A DNA stretch of 64,000 nucleotides, taken from NCBI RefSeq assembly GCF_026684035.1, contig NZ_CP113361.1:1426001-1490000 (forward strand). The letters are read 5' to 3'. The notes under the pieces were generated by a model. It did no database searches and was not told the DNA's origin. It was given only the letters and a program-made list of their open reading frames with translations. This DNA comes from Methanogenium organophilum (lineage in GTDB: Archaea > Halobacteriota > Methanomicrobia > Methanomicrobiales > Methanomicrobiaceae). Made by a program: the position numbers and the translations under genes. Positions 51,104 through 64,000 of the stretch are shown here, piece by piece. Position 1 is the stretch's first letter. Every line of letters starts with the position of its first letter.

Positions 51104-54100
51104 TTATGGCTTCCTGATCCTGGTTGCCAGGGCGGTAAGAAGCAGTCCGAATCCTCCCAGTAAAACACCAAAGCCGGGTGTGGCGGTCGGGGTGGGTTGT
51201 GTGGTTTCCGAACCTGGTGTCACGGATGGTTCCGGAGTATTAACTGGTGCCTGTGTCGGAATCGGGATATCTGACGGCTGTTTGGTGGATTCCGGTGATA
51301 TCTCCTTGGTTGCACTGGCAAAGAGGGCGAACAGACTGAAATGGGTAATCTGTGCGGTCACCGTCCGCTCAGCGGCATTGATGGTAACCGGGATCTCCTC
51401 CCATTTGTTCCCCGCTTTGTCGAAGTACCAGAGGGAGGGCGTCTTCCCGGAAAGCGCGTTCCACTCTTCCTCGGTAAAGCTGAAGGTCATGGTGATGGCA
51501 GGGGAGAACTGTGCACCGGATGGGGTGCACTCGTATGCCTTTCCTGTGAAGCTGAAGGTGGTACCCGGTGACTTCCCCGAGAGATCTGCCTGAGGCGTGA
51601 TTGTCACTTCACTAAGTGGATTATCCGAGCTGTCCAGGGCGTAGGTATTTATCCCGATGTTAAGCGAGGCAATTCCGTCCTTTGCGATGACCGTGGTGGT
51701 CCTGAGGGTTTTGCCTTCCTGTGATGTCAGGAGGGTTCCGGTATTCCGGCTCGTAATGGATGCAGGAACTGCATCGTCATCTCCACTGTCATCCGAATAC
51801 GGTGCGGTGACGCTGATGTATTCCGGTCGGATTTTTGTGTCATAATCATTTCCGTCACTCACTGTCAGGTTTACGGAGTAATGGCCTACTGTTCCGTAGG
51901 TATGGCTCACGTTCTGTGTGGTTGCATCGATGATGCCGTCATTCTCGAAGTCCCATGCCCATGTGGTGGCGCCTACGGAGAGATCCGTGAACCGGACCGT
52001 GAGGGGGGCAGTGCCGTAGGATGGTGTTGCGGTGAAGTTTGCCTGCAGCGTAGTGTCTGGTGTCTCCACGACGAGGATGGTGGTCATGGCATACATATTG
52101 TCGCCCTTGTTCTCCACCATCCTGCTCTGCATCGCCGCCTCGTTGTCTCCGTCCGTGAGTGCGTCCGTGACGTCGTATACAGAGAATCCAACCTGCGGGT
52201 CTCTCAGGTAGTCTGTCCAGAATCCTTCGTATTCCTGTCCGTTGAATATGAATGCGCTCTTGTTTTCATCTCCCGCACCGCCGAGGATGGTCACTGCGGT
52301 TGCCTTCTCTACTCCGTCCTTCACAACACCGGTGAACGGTGCGAATACGGTCGCCTCGGTATCGTTCACTGAGTATGTCGTGTATGAGTAAATCATATCG
52401 AACTCTTCGTTCAGCCATATCGCCCTTGGTGCGGTTTCCGGGTCTTCATAGACGACGACAAGGTATGCGCCGTATATGCCGTAGTCGTTGTCCGCCTCTG
52501 GTGTGATGGTCATGACGTTGCCCGTGGTGTCGAAGGCAGCGGTCACATCATAGACATACATACCGTACGGGAAGCTGTACGATCCGAATCCCTTGATATC
52601 CTGGTAGTTCTCCGCCGGCTGTACGACGTCTCCGTTGAAGGACATGGTGAACGTCGGGTCAGTGCCCATCTTGTTGTATGTCCATGCCTGGTAGAGACGT
52701 GCGTTCACGACGGTCGCCCCTTCCGGCACGGGGAGGTCTTCGGCGGACCAGTTGTATGTCTGTTCCGTCCATAATTTGTTGTTATATGCGGTGTTTCCGG
52801 CAGACCAGGTCACGTTGTAGTGTCCGTCATAGGATGCCACGGTATCCTGGTCATCTCCGTCGGTCCATCGCTTGCCCTTGTATCCGTTGTTGTATACGGT
52901 GAGTGTCTTCGTGAGTGCGTTGTTTGTCTCATCCGACTCCTCTACCGCTACGGCAGTGTCCGCGGTCGCGGTTACCGTGACCGAATCTCCACCGGTGCGG
53001 ATACTGGGGTCCGCAACGGTCACGGTGGTTGATGCGTGAGCCGCGAGGCCGCTTACCTCTTCGGTGTACTGGGTTCCTGCGACATCAATGATGACGGTGA
53101 ATGCTCCCGCATCCGTCGTTCCGTTGTTCTTCACGGTTGCTGATACAGTGTTCGGCTCGTTTGCAAAGAGGTCATTGCCCGCAGCGCTGTTCGGGGTGAT
53201 GGCCGTTACGTTCAGGTCGACATCCGCGGACTGCGCCATGAGGATGGTGGTCATGGCATACATATTGTCGCCCTTGTTCTCCACCATCCTGCTCTGCATC
53301 GCCGCCTCGTTGTCTCCGTCCGTGAGTGCGTCCGTGACGTCGTATACAGAGAATCCAACCTGTGGGTCTCTCAGGTAGTCTGTCCAGAATCCTTCGTATT
53401 CCTGTCCGTTGAATATGAATGCGCTCTTGTTTTCATCTCCCGCACCGCCGAGGATGGTCACTGCGGTTGCCTTCTCGACTTCGTCTGTCACAACACCGGT
53501 GAACGGTGCGAATACGGTCGCCTCGGTATCGTTCACTGAGTATGTCGTGTATGAGTAAATCATATCGAACTCTTCGTTCAGCCATATTGCCCTTGGTGCG
53601 GTTTCCGGGTCTTCATAGACGACGACAAGGTATGCGCCGTATATGCCGTAGTCGTTGTCCGCCTCTGGTGTGATGGTCATGACGTTGCCCGCGGTGTCGA
53701 AGGCAGCGGTCACATCATAGACATACATACCGTACGGGAAGCTGTACGATCCGAATCCCTTGATATCCTGGTAGTTCTCCGCCGGCTGTACGACGTCTCC
53801 GTTGAAGGACATGGTGAACGTCGGGTCAGTGCCCATCTTGTTGTATGTCCATGCCTGGTAGAGACGTGCGTTCACGACGGTCGCCCCTTCCGGCACGGGG
53901 AGGTCTTCGGCGGACCAGTTGTATGTCTGTTCCGTCCATAATTTGTTGTTATATGCGGTGTTTCCGGCAGACCAGGTCACGTTGTAGTGTCCGTCATAGG
54001 ATGCCACGGTATCCTGGTCATCTCCGTCGGTCCATCGCTTGCCCTTGTATCCGTTGTTGTATACGGTGAGTGTCGTGGTGAGACTGTTATACGGCTCAGA

Positions 54101-54496
54101 GGTCTCCTCAACTTGCCCGTCTGTGTCGGCCGTGACGGTGACAATGACGCTGTCGCCGCCGGTACGGAGGGTGGCGTCTGTTATCATGACGGCAGTGGAG
54201 GTGTCCGCTGCAAGACTGTCGACGTCAGCGGTGTATTCTGTTCCTGCGACATCAAAGCGAACGGTGAATGCGCCTATATCCGTTATCCCTTCGTTCTTTA
54301 CCGTTGCCGTGATGGTGTTCGGCTCGTTTGCGAAGAGATCGCCGCCTGCCCCGCTGTTGGGGGAGATATCCGTTACGTTCAGATCCATGGCTGGTGAAAT
54401 TGCACCCACCGGCACAATCGACACCATAAGCAGGAGTGCGAGGAGAAGAATTGTTCTGTCACGCTTTTCAGGGCTAAATGTTTGTTTTTTTTTCAT
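51104..54496 (-). CDS. Large PGF-CTERM surface protein: two CARDB-DUF3344 units plus PKD
   Basis: 1130 residues. Signal peptide (~1-35), then CARDB ('DLNVTDISPNSGAGG') and DUF3344 ('NNGYKGKRWTDGDDQDTVAS'), the same pair again ('DLNVTAITPNSAAGN'), a PKD domain ('FTATPSYGTAPLTVRFTDLS', 'WDFENDGIID'), and a PGF-pre-PGF-like beta domain ending 'ITHFSLFALFA'. A Pro/Thr stalk and a C-terminal 'ATPGFGVLLGGFGLLLTALA' with basic tail follow: a PGF-CTERM signal for archaeosortase cleavage and lipid attachment. The repeat period is 389 codons. Its DUF3344 halves are nearly identical in DNA; the CARDB halves have diverged. Probably a cell-surface or adhesive protein. Confidence 0.88.
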   Translation of the reverse strand: MKKKQTFSPEKRDRTILLLALLLMVSIVPVGAISPAMDLNVTDISPNSGAGGDLFANEPNTITATVKNEGITDIGAFTVRFDVAGTEYTADVDSLAADTSTAVMITDATLRTGGDSVIVTVTADTDGQVEETSEPYNSLTTTLTVYNNGYKGKRWTDGDDQDTVASYDGHYNVTWSAGNTAYNNKLWTEQTYNWSAEDLPVPEGATVVNARLYQAWTYNKMGTDPTFTMSFNGDVVQPAENYQDIKGFGSYSFPYGMYVYDVTAAFDTAGNVMTITPEADNDYGIYGAYLVVVYEDPETAPRAIWLNEEFDMIYSYTTYSVNDTEATVFAPFTGVVTDEVEKATAVTILGGAGDENKSAFIFNGQEYEGFWTDYLRDPQVGFSVYDVTDALTDGDNEAAMQSRMVENKGDNMYAMTTILMAQSADVDLNVTAITPNSAAGNDLFANEPNTVSATVKNNGTTDAGAFTVIIDVAGTQYTEEVSGLAAHASTTVTVADPSIRTGGDSVTVTATADTAVAVEESDETNNALTKTLTVYNNGYKGKRWTDGDDQDTVASYDGHYNVTWSAGNTAYNNKLWTEQTYNWSAEDLPVPEGATVVNARLYQAWTYNKMGTDPTFTMSFNGDVVQPAENYQDIKGFGSYSFPYGMYVYDVTAAFDTTGNVMTITPEADNDYGIYGAYLVVVYEDPETAPRAIWLNEEFDMIYSYTTYSVNDTEATVFAPFTGVVKDGVEKATAVTILGGAGDENKSAFIFNGQEYEGFWTDYLRDPQVGFSVYDVTDALTDGDNEAAMQSRMVENKGDNMYAMTTILVVETPDTTLQANFTATPSYGTAPLTVRFTDLSVGATTWAWDFENDGIIDATTQNVSHTYGTVGHYSVNLTVSDGNDYDTKIRPEYISVTAPYSDDSGDDDAVPASITSRNTGTLLTSQEGKTLRTTTVIAKDGIASLNIGINTYALDSSDNPLSEVTITPQADLSGKSPGTTFSFTGKAYECTPSGAQFSPAITMTFSFTEEEWNALSGKTPSLWYFDKAGNKWEEIPVTINAAERTVTAQITHFSLFALFASATKEISPESTKQPSDIPIPTQAPVNTPEPSVTPGSETTQPTPTATPGFGVLLGGFGLLLTALATRIRKP
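52073..52907 (-). repeat. DUF3344 repeat unit, C-terminal copy
   Basis: 835 bases that match 53240-54074 with an offset of 1167 bases. I count about seven mismatches, most of them in one cluster where TDE in one protein copy is KDG in the other, plus one Ala/Thr change. Confidence 0.85.
53240..54074 (-). repeat. DUF3344 repeat unit, N-terminal copy
   Basis: Partner of 52073-52907. The flanking CARDB-coding segments, also in the 1167-base period, show clear divergence at the same time, so the identity is confined to DUF3344. Confidence 0.85.
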
Positions 54497-55013: not shown

Positions 55014-55580
55014 ATGATATCCAGGTTCATCATATCAGTCATAGTATCTTTAGTACTCATCAGCTGTGCCTTCGTCCCCGCTTCTGCAGGGAATGGTGTA
55101 TCAGGGCTTTCCTTTAGTCTCGAGGAGGTGGCTGGTGCGGAGAATGAATACCTGCTCTCCTGCGATGGTGCAGATGGCGGGCCTGTAGGCATCTCAATAT
55201 CCTTTCCGGGCCCTGCTAACATTGTCAGCACCACACTCTCAGAAAGCCGGTATCAGATGAATGGAAATACGCTTTTCTATGCCCTTGTCGATGAGGATGC
55301 CTGTTCCTTCCGTATCATTTGTGCGGATCTTCAGCCGGGAACACTTTCGCTCTCGTGGGAAGAGTTCGCAGATGGCGTCTCAGGTGAGACAGTTATAACG
55401 GTTTCAGATGCGGGAGAGGTATCTGTTTCAGCTTCTGGAAATTCTGGTGTAGAGGATGATGCGAATCAGCCGTCAGCAACGGTGACGCAGAGCCCCTTTG
55501 TGGGGATTGCATTCACGGTCATCGTGGCATTTGCCGTTGTGGATGTGTATTCCCGCAGGAGAGAGGAGGGGTCACAATGA
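55014..55580 (+). CDS. Secreted membrane-anchored protein, first gene of uptake operon 1
   Basis: 188 residues: signal peptide ending 'FVPASAG', a ~110-residue beta-rich domain ('VSGLSFSLEEV', 'PVGISISFPG', 'TLFYALVDED', 'GTLSLSWEEF'), a Ser/Asp stalk and a C-terminal membrane helix with basic tail ('VFVVDVYSRRRE'-like end). The domain layout (strands flanking short acidic loops) is reminiscent of archaeal cohesin-type domains, but I cannot confirm this. The stop overlaps the binding-protein start by 4 bases (ATGA). It may hold or dock the binding protein at the membrane. A TATA box ~25 bases upstream suggests a leaderless mRNA. Confidence 0.7.
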   Translation: MISRFIISVIVSLVLISCAFVPASAGNGVSGLSFSLEEVAGAENEYLLSCDGADGGPVGISISFPGPANIVSTTLSESRYQMNGNTLFYALVDEDACSFRIICADLQPGTLSLSWEEFADGVSGETVITVSDAGEVSVSASGNSGVEDDANQPSATVTQSPFVGIAFTVIVAFAVVDVYSRRREEGSQ

Positions 55581-56842
55581 GATTAATCGGAGGGAACTAT
55601 TTCCTGGCGATGTTTCTGAATATAGCAGTCCTGTCCATTGCTATCGCTATGGTCACTGTGCCCGTTGCCGCAGCAGACACGGGAGCTCTCCCGCTTGATG
55701 TGAACGGCGATGGCACCATCGGCAGTGATGAGATGGCTTCAGCGATTCTTGATTATCTTGAGCGGCAACATGCAGGCACCAGTATGGATGAAGGTCTCTA
55801 TGCGGACCTCACCGATGGTGCCTATGTCTATACCTACTGGAATAAGACCGCAAAGACCGTTCATGACTTCTCCGGTCAGACTGTCACCCTGACGCGACCT
55901 ATTCACCGGGCTGTCGTGATGAACGGGGAGACCGCCGAGACGCTGCGTTCCCTTGGCTTTGATAGCACGAAGGTGGTGGGTGTCGGGAAGTACATCCTGG
56001 AAGACCCGGTCTTCTTCCCGGAATATGCAGGGATGCCGAATGTCGGCAGTATCTGGTCGCCGGACTACGAAAAAATAATCTCGCTCTCCCCGGATACCGT
56101 CATTATATATGCGGATTTCATGGACAGCAAAGGGGATGAAATCCAGGAGACTATCCAGTCCATGGACCCATCTATACACGTACTCCGCTATGATCTCTTC
56201 AACCCTGAGACCTATGCCGAAGAGGTCGGCCTTCTCGCCGCAGCGGTCGACCGGGAGGATGAAGGAAGTGATTTCGTCGCCTTCTATACACAGCAGATGA
56301 ATACGGTCACCGGCAGGGTGGCGACCATCCCGGAGGATGAGCGGGTGACGGTGTACTTCGAAAACGCAGATGATTACAAGAGCTGTGCAGAAGGGTCCGG
56401 TTACCATGACAAGATTATCATGGCTGGTGGCCACAATATCTTCGGAAACGCAACACCGTCATATCCTGAGGTGAATCCCGAATCCGTGCTCTTTGCCGAC
56501 CCAGAGGTCGTCCTGAAACTCCAGGGAACAGGAGTTCTGGACTTCGGAGGGTATGCGGATGATGACACCACACGAACGGCGGAGGTCTATGAGGGCCTCC
56601 TCGCCAGACCGGGATGGAATTCCATGGCGGCGGTCAAAGACGGCCGTGTTTACATCATTGACAGCGACATCTTCGGCGGACCGAAACACTTCATCGGCAT
56701 TCTCTACCTTGCCACATGGTTCTACCCGGATATGTTTGCCGATGTGAATCCTGAGGACGTTCACCAGGAGTATCTCACCACCTATCAGCACAGTGATTAC
56801 GATCTCTCGTCACACGGTGTATTCGTGTATCCGGTGGCATAG
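55577..56842 (+). CDS. ABC importer solute-binding protein (iron/cobalamin type) with N-terminal EF-hand module
   Basis: 421 residues: signal peptide (1-33), then an EF-hand/dockerin-like loop 'DVNGDGTIGSDE' (41-52) followed by 'MASAILDYLE' and 'LTDGAYVYTYWNK', a linker, then a class III periplasmic-binding fold: 'HRAVVMNGETAETLRSLGF' first lobe, 'VGVGKYI', 'NVGSIWSPDYEKIISLSPD', and second lobe 'VTVYFENADDYKS', 'MAGGHNIFGNA', 'DGRVYIIDSDIFGG'. This is the FepB/BtuF-type fold; ligand (ferri-siderophore, haem, cobalamin or other chelate) unclear. No lipobox or anchor, so the EF-hand module may attach it to another envelope protein. Confidence 0.88.
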   Translation: MRLIGGNYFLAMFLNIAVLSIAIAMVTVPVAAADTGALPLDVNGDGTIGSDEMASAILDYLERQHAGTSMDEGLYADLTDGAYVYTYWNKTAKTVHDFSGQTVTLTRPIHRAVVMNGETAETLRSLGFDSTKVVGVGKYILEDPVFFPEYAGMPNVGSIWSPDYEKIISLSPDTVIIYADFMDSKGDEIQETIQSMDPSIHVLRYDLFNPETYAEEVGLLAAAVDREDEGSDFVAFYTQQMNTVTGRVATIPEDERVTVYFENADDYKSCAEGSGYHDKIIMAGGHNIFGNATPSYPEVNPESVLFADPEVVLKLQGTGVLDFGGYADDDTTRTAEVYEGLLARPGWNSMAAVKDGRVYIIDSDIFGGPKHFIGILYLATWFYPDMFADVNPEDVHQEYLTTYQHSDYDLSSHGVFVYPVA

Positions 56843-56856
56843 TCAGGGACGGATGA

Positions 56857-57951
56857 ATGACGGTAACCATCGAAGATTTCGCCCGTGAATCGTCCCGCAT
56901 AAAATCCAAACGCATCTTCTTTTTTTTGGGGATGGGTGGGATTCTCCTCGTGCTCACACTCGTGGGGATCACGCTCGGGTCGGGGGAACTGACGATCGCC
57001 GATTCCTATCGTGCCCTCTGGGACGGGCTTTCCGCGAGGCTTGCCTACCTCATCTCGGGGGCGGTGTCCACTGCCACGCCCGATACTGCAGAGATCGTTG
57101 TCTGGGATATCCGTCTCCACCGGGTTCTCTTTGCGCTTGTAGCCGGATTCGGGCTTGCGATCGCGGGTACTATCATGCAGGGAATCCTGCGCAATCCTTT
57201 GGCGAGTCCATTCACTTTGGGGATATCCTCTGCGGCGTCGTGCGGTGCATCGGTTGCGATCATTCTCCTTGCCGGCGTGACCATCGTGAGCGCGAATCTG
57301 CTCGTGGTGGTGATGGCGTTCCTCTTCGCGATCGCCGCATCGTTTCTCATCTATGGCATGGCACGGAAGAAAGGGCTCTCCTCCTCTTCATTAATTCTCG
57401 CCGGCATTGCCATCATGTATCTCTTCTCCGCGATCACGTCACTCATCCAGTATTTCGGGTCGTCGGATCAGGCGGCTGCGGTGGTGTACTGGATGTTTGG
57501 CTCCCTCTCCGCGACCACCTGGCCGAAACTCCTCATTGTCACGGCAGTCATCGCGGTACTGGTCCCCTACATCGTCATACGCGCCTGGGACCTGAATGCG
57601 CTTGCCGAGGGTGATGAGATTGCAAAGAGTGTCGGCGTCCCGGTCGAGCGGACGATGACGGTCTTCATGATGATAGCCTCCATTATTACGGCGGTCATCA
57701 TTGCATTCACCGGCACCATCGGGTTCATCGGGCTCGTCGCCCCGCATATCACCCGCATGACAATCGGGAGTGATCACCGGTGGCTGGTACCGGCATCCGG
57801 TCTTGTGGGGGCGGCGATTCTCCTCGGTGCCGACAATCTCTGCCGTACGCTGATCTATCCTGCGGTGATTCCGGTGGGGATCATGACGGCGTTTCTGGGC
57901 GTGCCGTTCTTCCTGTATCTCTTCATGAAACGGGGTGATACCGGATGGTAG
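56857..57951 (+). CDS. FecCD/BtuC-type ABC transporter permease
   Basis: 364 residues, about ten membrane helices. 'GDELTIADSYRALWDG'-like N-terminus, then 'WDIRLHRVLFALVAGFGLAIAGTIMQG' and 'LGISSAASCGASVAII' of the family, cytoplasmic coupling loop 'LGANLAEGDEIAKSVGVPVERT'-like ('LNALAEGDEIAKSVGV'), and the C-terminal 'FTGTIGFIGLVAPHITRM' block. Forms the transmembrane pore with the ATPase encoded next. Fourteen bases separate it from the binding-protein gene, 7 bases overlap the ATPase gene. Confidence 0.92.
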   Translation: MTVTIEDFARESSRIKSKRIFFFLGMGGILLVLTLVGITLGSGELTIADSYRALWDGLSARLAYLISGAVSTATPDTAEIVVWDIRLHRVLFALVAGFGLAIAGTIMQGILRNPLASPFTLGISSAASCGASVAIILLAGVTIVSANLLVVVMAFLFAIAASFLIYGMARKKGLSSSSLILAGIAIMYLFSAITSLIQYFGSSDQAAAVVYWMFGSLSATTWPKLLIVTAVIAVLVPYIVIRAWDLNALAEGDEIAKSVGVPVERTMTVFMMIASIITAVIIAFTGTIGFIGLVAPHITRMTIGSDHRWLVPASGLVGAAILLGADNLCRTLIYPAVIPVGIMTAFLGVPFFLYLFMKRGDTGW

Positions 57952-58733
57952 CGATAACGGTTAAGGGTCTCTCGTATACCTACCGGAAGAAGCCGGTCTT
58001 CTCCGGGGTCTCCTTTGAAGCGAAAGAAGGTGAGGTGTTGGGGGTGGTCGGACCGAACGGGTCGGGGAAGACGACGATAATCAAGTGCATCGATGGTATC
58101 CTGCAGCCGAAGGGTGAGGTCCGGGTATTCGGCGAGGATGTCGCATCCATGGACCGGATGTCCATCGCACGAAAAATTGCCTACGTACCTCAGTCCTTTC
58201 CCGAGGGGCTCTCATCGGTCGTCTATGAGACGATCATGATGGGCAGGCGGCCGTATCTGAACTGGAAGACCGGCCTTGAGGATGAAGAGAAGGTCTATCA
58301 TGCAATGAAGATGCTCGGTGTAGAGGATTTTGCCTTCCGGAAGGTGAAGGAGCTCTCCGGGGGAGAACGGCAGCGGGTGATGATCGCCCGGGCCATTGTC
58401 CAGGAAACGCCGGTCATCCTGATGGATGAACCGACCAGCAGTCTGGATGTTCGTCACCAGATGGAGGTGATGGAGGTGGCGCGGGGTCTCGCGGAAAACC
58501 GTAACATCGCGGTCGTCATGTCACTGCATGACCTCAACCTCGCCGCCCGGTATTGCGACCGCATAGTGGTTCTCAACGAGGGGAATTTGTGTGGATACGG
58601 GGCACCGCGGGAGGTGCTCACAGAAGACGTTATCAGGCAGGTCTATGGCATCGAGGCACGAATCAGCAGCGATGTCGAATGCCCCTATATCATCCCGTTG
58701 CATCCGGTTGCTGGTCTGCAAAAGGGTGAATGA
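57945..58733 (+). CDS. FecE/BtuD-type ABC transporter ATP-binding protein
   Basis: 262 residues. Walker A 'GPNGSGKTTII', Q-loop 'PQSFPEG', signature 'LSGGERQRV', Walker B 'VILMDEPTSSLD', H-loop 'MSLHDLN'. Powers uptake through the FecCD-type permease. ATG at 57945 overlaps the permease stop. The C-terminal ~30 residues vary among such ATPases and show no extra domain. Confidence 0.94.
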   Translation: MVAITVKGLSYTYRKKPVFSGVSFEAKEGEVLGVVGPNGSGKTTIIKCIDGILQPKGEVRVFGEDVASMDRMSIARKIAYVPQSFPEGLSSVVYETIMMGRRPYLNWKTGLEDEEKVYHAMKMLGVEDFAFRKVKELSGGERQRVMIARAIVQETPVILMDEPTSSLDVRHQMEVMEVARGLAENRNIAVVMSLHDLNLAARYCDRIVVLNEGNLCGYGAPREVLTEDVIRQVYGIEARISSDVECPYIIPLHPVAGLQKGE

Positions 58734-58995: not shown

Positions 58996-59092
58996 ATTTC
59001 AGTTATGTTATAATTTATTCATTCACTTTTCAGATTAAATGAAATAATTTATTATTGTTATCTTACATGATCATACTAAATTGGTTATTGTT
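58996..59092 (+). promoter_or_regulatory. AT-rich promoter of uptake operon 2 with dyad
   Basis: TAAAT (59036-59040) and ATTTA (59047-59051), separated by 6 bases, form a dyad at a TATA-like ATTTATTATTG (59046-59057), ~40 bases before the ATG at 59093. A similar, longer dyad precedes operon 1. Confidence 0.35.
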
Positions 59093-60241
59093 ATGATTGT
59101 GCATAGATTGTCAACCAGAAATGCGGTTTCTGCGGTTATGGTTCTCATACTGATGCTGGTGGTCATGCCGGCGGCAGCAGAGGACATCACTATCACCCGT
59201 TCGATACCCATGTCCTCCTATCTGGGGGAGGACTTCACGGTAACACTTTCGATAGAGGGGCTCGATGCCGGTGGTATCATCGAAACGCTTCCGGACGGGC
59301 TTCTGTTTGTCTCGACTGAACATCCTGCTGAACAGACGGATGTTTCCGGACAGCATGTGGTCTTTTCCGTTGTGGATGAAGAAGAAATCGTCTACACGGT
59401 GAAACCATCCCGTCTGGGGAGCCAGACGATTGACGGAATCTGGGCCGATGTCGCAGCACTGACGAATGGAACGATTGCCGGCAGCACGGTGTCAGTGTTC
59501 AGTCGTAGCGGCGGGAGCTCTTCGGATGACGATGTGGATATTGGCAGTGCCACCGTGACCGCTACACCAACGGAGAATGTGACCTCAACCCTGTCAGCCT
59601 CAGGTGATGTATGTGAAAGAACATTTACGGTCGAAGGTACGGCTGTTCGGTCGCTGACCCTGACCGGTCCGTCCTCTCTGGATGAATCTTCATTCTATGT
59701 CAGGACCATTGACTGCCCCGACGGCGTCCCGGCAGTTGAATACACTGCCTTCCAATACCTGGAGATGGATCTTACCGGCTGTTCCGACGATGATATCAGT
59801 GGGGCAATGGTCCGGTTCACGGTGGATCGCTCATGGATTGAGGAACAATCCATCTCGGAGGCGAGTATCGTTCTCATGCGCTATCACGACGGGTGGACTA
59901 CTCTCCAGACGAAACGGGTCCGTTCCGGTGACACCGATACGGTACTGATGTACGAGGCGTCCGTGCCGGGTTTCTCGGTATTTGCGATCAGCGGACGTGC
60001 ACTTACGGTGTCCACATCGGATACTACCGGAGATGGCGTGAAGGCATCGGCCACGGTTTCTGTGCCCGCTGATGCCGATGCTTCCGTTCCGCAGACCGAA
60101 GCCGCCGGTGAGACCGGAGAGACGGAATCCGCAGGTACTGCCCTTTTCGGCGGTATTGTTTTGATTTTCATCATAGTCTGTCTGCTGGGTGGGTATTGGT
60201 ACCTGAAAAAGAATGAAACCGGGAATGAGGTGGATAAATGA
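59093..60241 (+). CDS. PGF-pre-PGF domain surface protein, first gene of uptake operon 2
   Basis: 382 residues from ATG 59093 (a TTG at 59081 is in frame). Signal peptide ending 'VVMPAAAED', an N-terminal beta domain resembling a DUF11/CARDB-type repeat ('YLGEDFTVTLSIEGLDAG', 'TLPDGLLFVSTEHP'), a Ser/Asp linker, then a PGF-pre-PGF domain: 'YLEMDLTGCSDDDISGAMV', 'FTVDRSWIEEQSISEASIVL', 'GFSVFAISG'. A Thr/Ala stalk and C-terminal membrane helix ('GGIVLIFIIVCLLGGYWYL') end it. It overlaps the binding-protein gene by 4 bases (ATGA) and parallels the first gene of operon 1, suggesting a shared role beside the importer. Confidence 0.8.
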   Translation: MIVHRLSTRNAVSAVMVLILMLVVMPAAAEDITITRSIPMSSYLGEDFTVTLSIEGLDAGGIIETLPDGLLFVSTEHPAEQTDVSGQHVVFSVVDEEEIVYTVKPSRLGSQTIDGIWADVAALTNGTIAGSTVSVFSRSGGSSSDDDVDIGSATVTATPTENVTSTLSASGDVCERTFTVEGTAVRSLTLTGPSSLDESSFYVRTIDCPDGVPAVEYTAFQYLEMDLTGCSDDDISGAMVRFTVDRSWIEEQSISEASIVLMRYHDGWTTLQTKRVRSGDTDTVLMYEASVPGFSVFAISGRALTVSTSDTTGDGVKASATVSVPADADASVPQTEAAGETGETESAGTALFGGIVLIFIIVCLLGGYWYLKKNETGNEVDK

Positions 60242-61968
60242 ATATGATTCGAAGATTTCTGACCATTTCCATGGTCATCTGCGCACTCTGTCTGATGACC
60301 GTCGTTGCTCCGGCTGCAGCAGATGTGACAGAAATGACCCATGACGAGCTTGCGGGAGCGATTGTACCGTACATGGAGGCGACCTATCTGGGCGAAGACG
60401 TTATACACCTCGCACCGATTGAGATGCAGACGGCTGCATGCACCTACCTCGGCCTGCCCGGACCCGAATGGAATTCCGAGGTGCTGAGATTTGCGACATC
60501 GAATGTGGTGAAGGAAACAAACTTCTATGGTGACTACTATGTCGGCATCTTCTCCCATCTCTCGAATATGCCCCTGATGCGCATGGACGAGACCGGACAT
60601 CTCGTCGGGCTGACCGCCGACCATTACGAAGTCTCAGCCGACAACAGGCAGTGGACGTTCTATATCAAAGATGACCTCTACTGGAGTGACGGCAAGCAGG
60701 TGACGCCTGAGGATGTGGCATTCTCGTTCGAGTATCTCGGAGAGCACTGTGCCGATGCGGGATGGATCAAGGAGACCCTTGTCTCGACAAGCGTATCGGA
60801 TGAGGATAATTCAGTCACATTCACCTTTGATAGCCCCTATACGCGGATCAATCTGGAGTTTGCGACCTACAACATCATCCCGAAACATATCTGGGAGAAC
60901 ATTCCGGATCCAAATGCCTATACTGAGAGTGGGCCCTTCGTCGGCAACGGTCCCTTCTATCTGGAGGGCATTGACCTGAATGCGGCGAAACTGACATTCC
61001 AAAAGAACAACCACTGGCAGGGCAAAGAACCGTCATTCGGCACGGTGGAGGTGCACTGGTTCGCAAATGACGATGCGGCCGCCCTGGCACTTGAATCGGG
61101 AGAAGTCGATACCTACTACCGGTATGCAAAATCCTATCCGTATGCCAGTGTCGAGCGCCTGCTCGATACGGGCGAGTTCAGCACCCTTGAGGAGACGAGT
61201 ATCGGTCTGACGTTCCTTGCACCGAACCTGAAACGTGCGCCCATGAATGATCTCCAGTTCCGGGAGGCGATGGCGGACGCGATCAATTATCAGGAACTTG
61301 TCACCGTCGATACGCTCGGCTACGGCACCATCCCCAACCGCGGCTTTGTGCCGCCAGGTATGGACTACTACATCGATACCCCACAGCTCAGCTATGATCC
61401 GGAGAGTGCACGGCAGATCCTGAACGATTCGGGGTACCTTGATGAGAATAATAACGGCATCGTCGAATACAACGGCGAGGATATTGACCTCGACCTGCTG
61501 GTGCGCACCGGCTTCGAACGCGACGGCCAGCTGATAGAAGAGTACCTCGAGGCTGTCGGCATCGGCGCGACGGTTCATCAGGTCGACGCAACGACCTGGT
61601 TTGACCTTAAGGACAACTATGAGTACGACTTGACGGTAACGAGCACCACACCGTGGGGCATGCTGATGCACGCGGGATGGGGCACCGGGTACTTTGATTC
61701 CCGGAGGACCGGAAAGGGCGTACTGCATAACCTTGACGATCCGGAGTATCTCACATTATGCGACAACATTCTCGCAACGACGAACCAGGCGCAGCTGAAG
61801 ACCTACGGAGAAGAGATACAGGGATATTTCAATGATGATCTCCCGGCAATTGCCCTGTACTGGAAGAATGATGTGATTCCGTACAACCGTGCCTATACCG
61901 GATGGTATTACGAACCGCTCTTTGGCATCTACGATATCGAGACGTTCCTCAATGTCAGGCCAGTATAA
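60238..61968 (+). CDS. ABC importer solute-binding protein, Opp/Nik (family 5) type
   Basis: 576 residues: signal peptide (1-28), N-terminal helical module 'THDELAGAIVPYMEATYLG' (34-52) that matches the EF-hand module of the operon-1 binding protein but lacks its calcium loop. The family-5 solute-binding fold follows: 'GHLVGLTADHYEVSADNRQWT', 'LYWSDGKQVTPEDVAFSFEY', 'GNGPFYLEGID', 'LQFREAMADAINYQEL' and C-terminal 'FGIYDIETFLNVRPV'. Family members carry peptides, nickel or metallophore complexes; in methanogens nickel is likely but unproven. No lipobox. Coupled to the surface-protein gene before it and the methyltransferase gene after it. Confidence 0.88.
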   Translation: MNMIRRFLTISMVICALCLMTVVAPAAADVTEMTHDELAGAIVPYMEATYLGEDVIHLAPIEMQTAACTYLGLPGPEWNSEVLRFATSNVVKETNFYGDYYVGIFSHLSNMPLMRMDETGHLVGLTADHYEVSADNRQWTFYIKDDLYWSDGKQVTPEDVAFSFEYLGEHCADAGWIKETLVSTSVSDEDNSVTFTFDSPYTRINLEFATYNIIPKHIWENIPDPNAYTESGPFVGNGPFYLEGIDLNAAKLTFQKNNHWQGKEPSFGTVEVHWFANDDAAALALESGEVDTYYRYAKSYPYASVERLLDTGEFSTLEETSIGLTFLAPNLKRAPMNDLQFREAMADAINYQELVTVDTLGYGTIPNRGFVPPGMDYYIDTPQLSYDPESARQILNDSGYLDENNNGIVEYNGEDIDLDLLVRTGFERDGQLIEEYLEAVGIGATVHQVDATTWFDLKDNYEYDLTVTSTTPWGMLMHAGWGTGYFDSRRTGKGVLHNLDDPEYLTLCDNILATTNQAQLKTYGEEIQGYFNDDLPAIALYWKNDVIPYNRAYTGWYYEPLFGIYDIETFLNVRPV

Positions 61969-62767
61969 GGTGGATGAGCTCCTGGAAGGGTGGAGAGAAG
62001 GTCTCATCACCTCCACCTACTACCGTACTCTCCGGACGGACGGTACGAGTCACGATGATTTCTGGCGTGGGTTCGGGGATTATGATGCATGGAGTGCCCT
62101 GACCGGATATCCCGGCCGGATGGGAAACCGAATCTGTGAGTGCATCCCTTCCGGGGCGTCAGTTCTTGATATCGGGGCGGGGACAGGGGCACTCTCGCTT
62201 CCGCTCGCCCGACGTGGCTGTAGGGTGACTGCTCTCGATCCGTCCTCCTATCATCTGGACATGCTGCGCCGGAAGGCAACCGCAGACGGGTGTACCGGCA
62301 TCCGGTACATCGAAGATGTATGGGGTCCGTCCGCTGCCGCCACTGCGGGTCCGGTCGACTACGCGATTGCCGCATACTCGATGATCGATCCCGACCTCAG
62401 GGGTTTTCTCCAGGCAATGATCGACTGTACCGGTGTGGGGATATTTCTCGCGTACCGGGCGCGAGCCTCCGACCCCCTTGACTGTTTCGTAAGAGGGGAC
62501 GGCCCCCGGCCGGGCTCCCATTATATCACCAGCCTGCTGGATGTCATGGGATATGGCTACCGGGTTGAGTTTTTTGTGCGGGAGTTCTCCCTCCCCCTCG
62601 ATACGCTTCTCAGGAAATATCATGACGGGGAACGAACCCCGGATGAGATCCTGACCTTCCTGGATATGGAAGGAAGGGTCGTCCGGACACAGGACTCCGT
62701 AGCGGTGCGCTGCAGCGTCACCGATGCACTGATATCCGTTGCGACGAACGGCCGGACGGAGATGTGA
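61952..62767 (+). CDS. Class I SAM-dependent methyltransferase inside the importer operon
   Basis: 271 residues from ATG 61952, overlapping the binding-protein stop by 17 bases; GTG 61970 is an alternative. N-terminal helical region 'YKVDELLEGWREG' with 'HDDFWRGFGDYDAW', then the Rossmann motif I 'VLDIGAGTGALSLPLARRG', the acidic strand 2 'VTALDPSSYHLDMLRRKA', and motif IV-like 'DYAIAAYSMIDPD'. All SAM-binding residues are present. The permease GTG overlaps its stop, so it is translated in line with the transporter. Possible roles: modifying the imported chelate, its organic ligand, or a metallophore; not decidable from sequence. Confidence 0.85.
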   Translation: MSGQYKVDELLEGWREGLITSTYYRTLRTDGTSHDDFWRGFGDYDAWSALTGYPGRMGNRICECIPSGASVLDIGAGTGALSLPLARRGCRVTALDPSSYHLDMLRRKATADGCTGIRYIEDVWGPSAAATAGPVDYAIAAYSMIDPDLRGFLQAMIDCTGVGIFLAYRARASDPLDCFVRGDGPRPGSHYITSLLDVMGYGYRVEFFVREFSLPLDTLLRKYHDGERTPDEILTFLDMEGRVVRTQDSVAVRCSVTDALISVATNGRTEM

Positions 62768-63723
62768 ACGGAATGGGGTTTATTGGTGCCCGCTGCATCC
62801 GATATGCCGTCTCGTTGTTCTTTATCGTTATTCTTAACTTCCTTCTGCCGAGAGCGATGCCCGGTGATCCGGTGATGAATCTCATCGGAGAAGATACCAT
62901 GGTGACAGAGGCGACACTGGCGGCACTCAGGGCGAAACTGGGACTCGATCTCCCCATCGGTGCGCAGTTCTGGTCATATATCTCCTCTCTCTGCCACGGT
63001 GATCTGGGATATTCCTACCACCTCAATGGGCAGGTACTGGACCTCCTTCTGCCACGGATGGGCTGGACCCTCCTCTTTACCGGCATCGCGGTCGTTGCAG
63101 GTGCAGCGATAGGACTGGGTATCGGTGCCTTTGCGGGCTGGCGTCCGGAGCGAACAGGGTCACGAGTGACCTCGGTTCTCTCGCTTGCCATATCCTGCAC
63201 GCCGCCGTACTTCCTCGCCCTGCTCTTTCTCTCCCTCTTCTCCTTCCGGCTGGGGCTCTTTCCGTTCAAAGGACTCTATGACGAGCCCACCATCGGAAGC
63301 ATTGCCTGGCACCTCTTTTTGCCGGTGCTCGTCCTCACGCTCTTTGCGGCATCCCGCAACATCCTGATCATGCGGGGCAGTGTCCTTCAGGAAGGTGGGA
63401 GCCTGTACGCCCTGTACGCCCGTGCAAAGGGTTGTTCTGACCGTTTTGTCCTCTTCGGGCATGTCCTGAAGAATGCCTCCCTTCCGCTCATCACCCAGGT
63501 CGCACTCGACTTCGGCTTCATCTTCTCGGGCGCGCTGTTCGTGGAAATCGTCTTCTCCCTCAATGGTATGGGAACCCTTATTTACGATGCCGTGATGGGC
63601 CGTGACTACCCGCTCCTCCAGGGCGCCCTCCTCATTATTGCAATCACTGTCATTGCCGCGAATCTCGCTGCAGACCTCATCTGCGCGCGTATCGATCCGC
63701 GGCTCAGGGAGGCGGGACGATGA
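62764..63723 (+). CDS. DppB/NikB-type ABC transporter permease
   Basis: 319 residues, six helices. Family block at the start ('VILNFLLPRAMPGDPVMNLI'), 'LGLDLPIGAQFWSYISSLCHG', then the cytoplasmic coupling motif 'YALYARAKGCSDRFVLFGHV' region with Ala/Gly, and C-terminal 'EIVFSLNGMGTLIYDAVMGRDYPLLQG'. Start is GTG 62764 (or ATG 62773). Overlaps the next permease gene by 4 bases (ATGA). Confidence 0.92.
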   Translation: MNGMGFIGARCIRYAVSLFFIVILNFLLPRAMPGDPVMNLIGEDTMVTEATLAALRAKLGLDLPIGAQFWSYISSLCHGDLGYSYHLNGQVLDLLLPRMGWTLLFTGIAVVAGAAIGLGIGAFAGWRPERTGSRVTSVLSLAISCTPPYFLALLFLSLFSFRLGLFPFKGLYDEPTIGSIAWHLFLPVLVLTLFAASRNILIMRGSVLQEGGSLYALYARAKGCSDRFVLFGHVLKNASLPLITQVALDFGFIFSGALFVEIVFSLNGMGTLIYDAVMGRDYPLLQGALLIIAITVIAANLAADLICARIDPRLREAGR

Positions 63724-64000
63724 CCGGGGTAAACCGATGGGCGGTACTGCTCCTCGTCTGCTTCATCGTCATGGCGCTGATCCCCGGGGTTCTTGCCCCC
63801 TATGGACCGAAGGAGCGTTCCTATCCGTACCAGGACCCGTCTCCCGAACACCTCCTCGGAACAGATGACATCGGGACAGATATCCTGACCGAGGTGATCT
63901 ACAGCGCCCGCATCTCACTTTTTGTCGGCTTTGCCGCAGCGGCGCTTGCAACAGGAATTGGTCTTTGTATCGGGATCACGGCCGGGTACCTCAGGGGCGG
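63720..64000 (+). CDS. DppC/NikC-type ABC transporter permease, partial
   Basis: About 93 residues to the window edge. 'ALIPGVLAPYGPKER', 'PSPEHLLGTDDIGTDILTEV' and 'SARISLFVGFAAAALATGIG' are the classical N-terminal landmarks of the second permease in Opp/Dpp/Nik transporters (~280 residues). The rest and the expected two ATPase genes lie beyond the window. Confidence 0.92.
   Translation, partial: MTGVNRWAVLLLVCFIVMALIPGVLAPYGPKERSYPYQDPSPEHLLGTDDIGTDILTEVIYSARISLFVGFAAAALATGIGLCIGITAGYLRG

Follow-up and report, generated by a model that had tools for sequence, protein, structure and literature searches.

The genome of Methanogenium organophilum encodes a class I S-adenosylmethionine (SAM)-dependent methyltransferase (MT) within a peptide/nickel (Opp/Nik)-type ABC importer operon, in the 64,000-nucleotide stretch analysed here (the window; contig NZ_CP113361.1, positions 1,426,001 to 1,490,000). 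Because other methanogens and Dehalococcoides-like bacteria show the same pairing, the MT probably acts on whatever the importer brings in. No description of an MT within a nickel/Opp importer operon was found in the open literature searched, subscription journals being outside its scope; the parts are of known kinds, and their combination and recurrence appear new relative to that literature.

The operon lies on the forward strand, and its first gene is probably that of a secreted or anchored PGF-pre-PGF-domain protein (59081-60241; TIGR04213, 76.2 bits against a cut-off of 28), with a possible true start at ATG 59093 and a 4-nt overlap with the gene of an SBP_bac_5-family substrate-binding protein (SBP; 60238-61968; PF00496, E = 2.5e-59). 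The MT gene (61952-62767) is followed by genes for a NikB/OppB-type permease (62764-63723, starting at GTG 62764 or ATG 62773; PF00528, E = 2.1e-34) and a NikC/OppC-type permease (63720-64000), the latter extending past the window end and being followed there by two ATPase genes (NikD and NikE; L034:2520-4141). The operon therefore contains the full set expected of an Opp/Nik (peptide/nickel) ABC importer, namely an SBP_bac_5 protein, two BPD_transp permeases and two ABC ATPases. The best NCBIfam model for the NikB-type permease was the Opp2B nickel permease, at 237.7 bits, under its cut-off of 350. A PGF-pre-PGF homologue is also present 5' of the SBP gene in G062 and before importers lacking the MT in G040, G033, and G069, and importers of this kind may commonly have this protein as a partner at the cell surface. 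MT-less archaeal importers with a preceding homologue were observed at L229, L231, and L233.

The first-pass annotation had reported that the MT gene overlaps both of its neighbors. The 17-nt overlap with the SBP gene was confirmed, the SBP stop codon lying at 61966-61968 and the MT start codon at ATG 61952, and this start is supported by recurrence of the ATG and the overlap in G062 (23 nt), G090 (17 nt), and G127 (17 nt). Overlaps of 4, 17 or 23 nt were found at 14 of 16 SBP-MT junctions, the remaining two having gaps of 4 and 19 nt. The reported 4-nt overlap with the permease gene holds if NikB starts at GTG 62764 and is lost if it starts at the in-frame ATG 62773; no MT/permease overlap was obvious from the junction sequences of relatives. 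From this gene layout, it is fair to infer that the MT would be obligatorily co-expressed with the importer.

The MT reading frame runs from ATG 61952 to TGA 62765-62767 and encodes 271 amino acids, with the motif I sequence DIGAGTGA and a match to Pfam Methyltransf_25 (PF13649) of 41.7 bits against a cut-off of 27. Assignment to the class I SAM-dependent methyltransferases is supported by the Rossmann MT fold of the model, the intact SAM motif, and orthologs in the equivalent slot of other operons. The predicted structure (pLDDT 91.6) retrieved small-molecule MT folds with Z scores of 16-19, including ChlM, UbiG, NodS, and histamine MT with nearly tied Z scores; because the model resembles many small-molecule MTs about equally, it does not allow the acceptor to be named. 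No secretion signal was recognizable by eye, so the protein should act in the cytosol. The earlier description of the protein as an ordinary class I MT, and not a nicotianamine synthase-like one, was borne out by the absence of PF03059 from its Pfam hits, and a PF03059 (nicotianamine synthase) search of the M. organophilum genome gave no match. A role in histidine methylation of MCR was considered and ruled out, because most Methanomicrobiales lack the gene and bacteria that have no MCR carry it.

A survey of gene neighborhoods, proposed at the outset as the observation that could overturn the link, revealed that the MT-importer pairing is conserved across genera, families and domains. Among 150 Methanomicrobiales genomes (the window's own included in all counts), a clear MT ortholog was present in seven, with 37-54% identity and scattered over several families. 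Of the six besides the window's, five are located between the SBP and NikB genes (G062, G090, G127, G012, and G036), in the order SBP-MT-NikB-NikC(-NikD-NikE) as far as the contigs extend, and the sixth is on a contig that starts within the MT and continues with NikBCDE (G144). A pseudogene reading for G012 and G036, based on an in-frame TAA, was rejected since the alignment extends beyond the true stop. Searching the same 150 genomes with NikB returned 13 importers with at least 48% NikB identity, seven of them with the MT in the slot. The remaining six belong to one Methanocorpusculum-like genus and encode an MT in the opposite direction immediately 5' of the SBP gene, as read directly in G054, G042, and G078 and taken from coordinates for G082, G030, and G065. 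Among more distant importers (NikB identity 31-39%), G120 and G013 have the order SBP-MT-NikB, their MT being of a third type, and the six others that were read have no MT.

Within and beyond this order, every close MT relative found sits in an Opp/Nik importer operon, the set comprising 7 Methanomicrobiales (including the window), 7 members of a second methanogen family, 1 further archaeon, and 6 Chloroflexota. The second methanogen family has SBP-MT-NikB in all seven genomes found, and mcrA was present once in each of three members checked for it. Three Dehalococcoides-like genomes and one Dehalococcoidia metagenome-assembled genome (MAG) have the order MT-SBP, followed by NikBCDE in all three of these loci that were read further, and SBP-MT-NikBC is present in G154 and two Chloroflexota contigs. 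The link had been raised for methanogens; it does recur there, but is not limited to them, being found in Dehalococcoidia as well. An importer gene lay within about 1.5 kb of 21 of the 30 best phylum-level MT matches, versus 5 of 23 weaker order-level matches. Only one of 297 Desulfobacterota genomes gave an MT match, and a weak one, indicating that the MT is not a general bacterial feature.

Several further arrangements were observed in these groups. A Chloroflexota MAG and a one-contig archaeal genome (L046 and L156/L160) share an SBP-MT-NikB operon with MTs 73% and NikBs 87% identical, reflecting either recent transfer or a misbinned contig. At L045:2-4691, NikB-NikC are preceded by two SBP genes and two MT genes in alternation (SBP, MT, SBP, MT), the first MT being UbiE-like. 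Distant Chloroflexota MT relatives were seen by eye near CoxG-like and XdhC-like genes (L169, L170, L174, L178, L179, L183, and L187).

Comparison of the MT with its partner proteins suggested that they change together. The NikB tree separated 21 importers with an adjacent MT from 6 without at a 100/99 branch, a split to be read with caution given the long branches in distant groups, and none of 500 shuffles gave an equally clean one. Distances between MTs correlated with those between NikBs (r = 0.84) and SBPs (r = 0.80), with none of 2000 permutations as high, shared ancestry alone raising these values and accounting for part of them. The Methanocorpusculum-like genomes are informative in this respect: their NikB is nested inside the window's clade (47-50% identity), and their divergently encoded MT is only 24-25% identical to the window's MT and falls outside its clade. 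The SBP pocket motif, assigned to the pocket through alignment with NikA residues 398-416, is TPWGMLMHAGWGTGYFDSRRTG in the window's protein; in the Methanocorpusculum-like genomes MHAGWGTGYFDSRRTG becomes MDSGWATGYFASNTVG, and the longer motif TPWGMxMHAxWGTGYFDSRRTG becomes TAKGMMMDSGWATGYFASNTVG. This joint change of MT and SBP pocket suggests that the MT may act on the ligand of the SBP.

The nature of that ligand was approached through the importer proteins and their neighbors. Of the proposed Nik/Opp-type importer, the Opp/Nik architecture was borne out, and nickel is a candidate metal for the window's copy. The SBP scored 112.6 against a nickel_nikA cut-off of 393 and the permease 180.6 against a nickel_nikB cut-off of 447, both missing the equivalog level. 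In a low-identity alignment, the NikA Ni-chelate residues R137, W398, Y402, and H416 are not conserved in the SBP, which may thus carry something else; in the same alignment, the equivalent of NikA W100 is conserved in the main SBP clade. The predicted SBP fold is closest to NikZ/NikA/DppA-type proteins (Z scores of 33 to 29, effectively tied), the NikZ match (Z 33.0) being nearly level with dipeptide-, glutathione-, and sugar-binding relatives. Metal-related genes adjoin the operon in relatives: NikR lies directly 3' of SBP-MT-NikBCDE in G154 (PF08753, 8e-33), the only relative with an adjacent NikR; CbiM/CbiQ lie directly 5' of the SBP-MT-NikB operon in L046; and CooC-like ATPases are encoded after NikDE in G013 and between SBP and NikB in the MT-less G033. 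The presence of NikR, CbiMQO, and CooC-like neighbors favors nickel, with cobalt possible, these clues coming from relatives of which some have SBPs just 20-26% identical. The NikR gene of M. organophilum itself is located away from the operon, at G000:C1:1547215. A weak NikR-like palindrome, TTATTA-N16-TCATAC (59049-59076, forward strand), with two mismatches to the E. coli-type operator, lies just 5' of the operon and is not significant, 2.39 such sites being expected by chance in the window; a NikR operator search over the upstream regions found no conserved site.

Other features were noted nearby and in relatives. An identical NikR-pattern match occurs at 52382 and 53549, within the two nearly identical long repeats in the N-terminal part of a 1130-residue surface protein (51104-54496, reverse strand). 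Just upstream of the Opp/Nik operon, a FecBCD/BtuCDF-type metal-chelate importer operon (55014-58733, forward strand) encodes a small secreted protein, Peripla_BP_2, FecCD, and an ATPase. Weaker MT relatives adjoin FecBCD-type importers at L133, L136, L139, L144, L145, L147, L052, L053, and L055, with CooC-like ATPases at some FecBCD-type loci (L133 and L137). At L228:14437-19479, about 9 kb from an SBP-MT-NikBC operon, an operon encodes FecE, an MT, two FecSBPs, and a CooC-like protein, so that this genome has two importer types, each paired with an MT.

Our preferred reading, offered tentatively, is that the MT is a dedicated cytosolic partner of the importer, methylating an imported, probably nickel, chelator to free or trap the metal. 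In this scheme, a metal chelate, with nickel as the most likely metal, would enter through the Opp/Nik-type importer; in the cytosol, the MT would transfer a methyl group from SAM to the small ligand brought in, either the chelator itself or one of its groups; and methylation would weaken or alter metal binding, so that the metal is freed or trapped intracellularly. We infer in particular three points, namely the importer's ligand as the acceptor, nickel as the metal, and release or trapping, not synthesis, as the purpose of methylation. A broader and more doubtful proposal is that methanogens and organohalide-respiring Dehalococcoidia process an imported (nickel) chelate by an operon-encoded MT, with different MTs for different ligands.

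The first alternative, an unlikely one in our judgment, is that the MT makes a metallophore from a common metabolite, the chelator being exported and its metal complex retrieved by the importer, as in the staphylopine cnt system. The cnt operons link Opp/Nik-type importers to metallophore production, the SBP matches the CntA model (78.8 bits, far under the cut-off of 800), and covariation of the MT with the SBP pocket is likewise expected if the MT produces the ligand. However, no exporter or partner biosynthetic enzyme was recognized beside the operon when the ORFs around the loci read were inspected by eye, and the M. organophilum genome lacks a nicotianamine synthase, which makes an enzyme acting on what is imported more likely than one producing a metallophore for export. 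The first-pass annotation had allowed methylation before export or after import, or release of the metal; as neither an exporter nor a further biosynthetic gene was seen next to the operon in these loci, methylation before export is the less likely and methylation after import is favored.

Also rather unlikely, the importer could carry a metal-free organic nutrient or signal, with the MT beginning its use or detoxification. Peptides, sugars and other organic compounds are among the ligands of SBP_bac_5 proteins, the model fits these about as well as nickel binders, and the NikA ligand residues are missing from the SBP, whereas the NikR, CbiMQO, and CooC-like genes adjoining the operon in relatives, and the MT relatives adjoining FecBCD-type importers, argue against it. 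We give little credence to a passenger role, in which the MT has a housekeeping substrate and travels with an operon that is transferred as a whole: its distribution is patchy, with the overlapping form in 7 of 150 Methanomicrobiales, and the operon moves, given that an archaeon and a Chloroflexota bin carry nearly identical copies of it (NikB 87%), but distant MTs have replaced the MT beside related importers, which a passenger would not need, and the MT and SBP pocket covary. Least probable is a role in corrinoid or cobalt handling like that of CpaM methyltransferases, which take their name from neighboring corrinoid proteins. In its favor, CpaM is the top NCBIfam match of the window's MT and matches all 16 members of the MT alignment, and the CbiMQO next to L046 could be a cobalt importer; against it, the CpaM match covers the SAM-binding third only, at 44.8 bits against a cut-off of 180, and no corrinoid protein gene was recognized in the operons.

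How methanogens take up nickel to meet their large requirement is largely unknown. If the preferred reading of a cytosolic MT acting on an imported chelator is true, an importer that comes with its own ligand-modifying enzyme would provide a genetic handle on nickel uptake, and on the nature of any natural nickel chelate involved, both in methanogens and in Dehalococcoides.

Compared with known systems, the operon resembles E. coli NikABCDE in gene content (an SBP_bac_5 protein, a pair of permeases and a pair of ATPases), in the short overlaps between its genes and, in one relative (G154), in an adjacent NikR. It differs in having an MT gene between the nikA- and nikB-like genes, and an SBP that lacks NikA R137, W398, Y402, and H416 and reaches a score of 112.6 where the NikA cut-off is 393. 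The staphylopine/pseudopaline Cnt systems similarly tie an Opp/Nik-type importer (S. aureus) to the gene of a SAM-using enzyme; however, CntL is a member of the nicotianamine synthase family whose partners are CntM and an exporter, whereas the enzyme here is an ordinary class I MT. Cnt systems include exporters (PMC5719457); no Cnt-type exporter or opine dehydrogenase genes were recognized beside the importer by reading the ORFs around the loci. CpaM (NF043040) is the best-scoring named MT family for the window's MT, in the SAM-binding region, yet the 44.8 bits fall far short of the required 180, and the neighbors here are importer genes, not those of corrinoid proteins. Modification of chelators after import is known from the acetylation of ferrichrome and the esterase cleavage of enterobactin. 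By analogy, the present system would be alike if its cytosolic enzyme alters an imported chelator, with SAM-dependent methylation taking the place of acetylation or hydrolysis.
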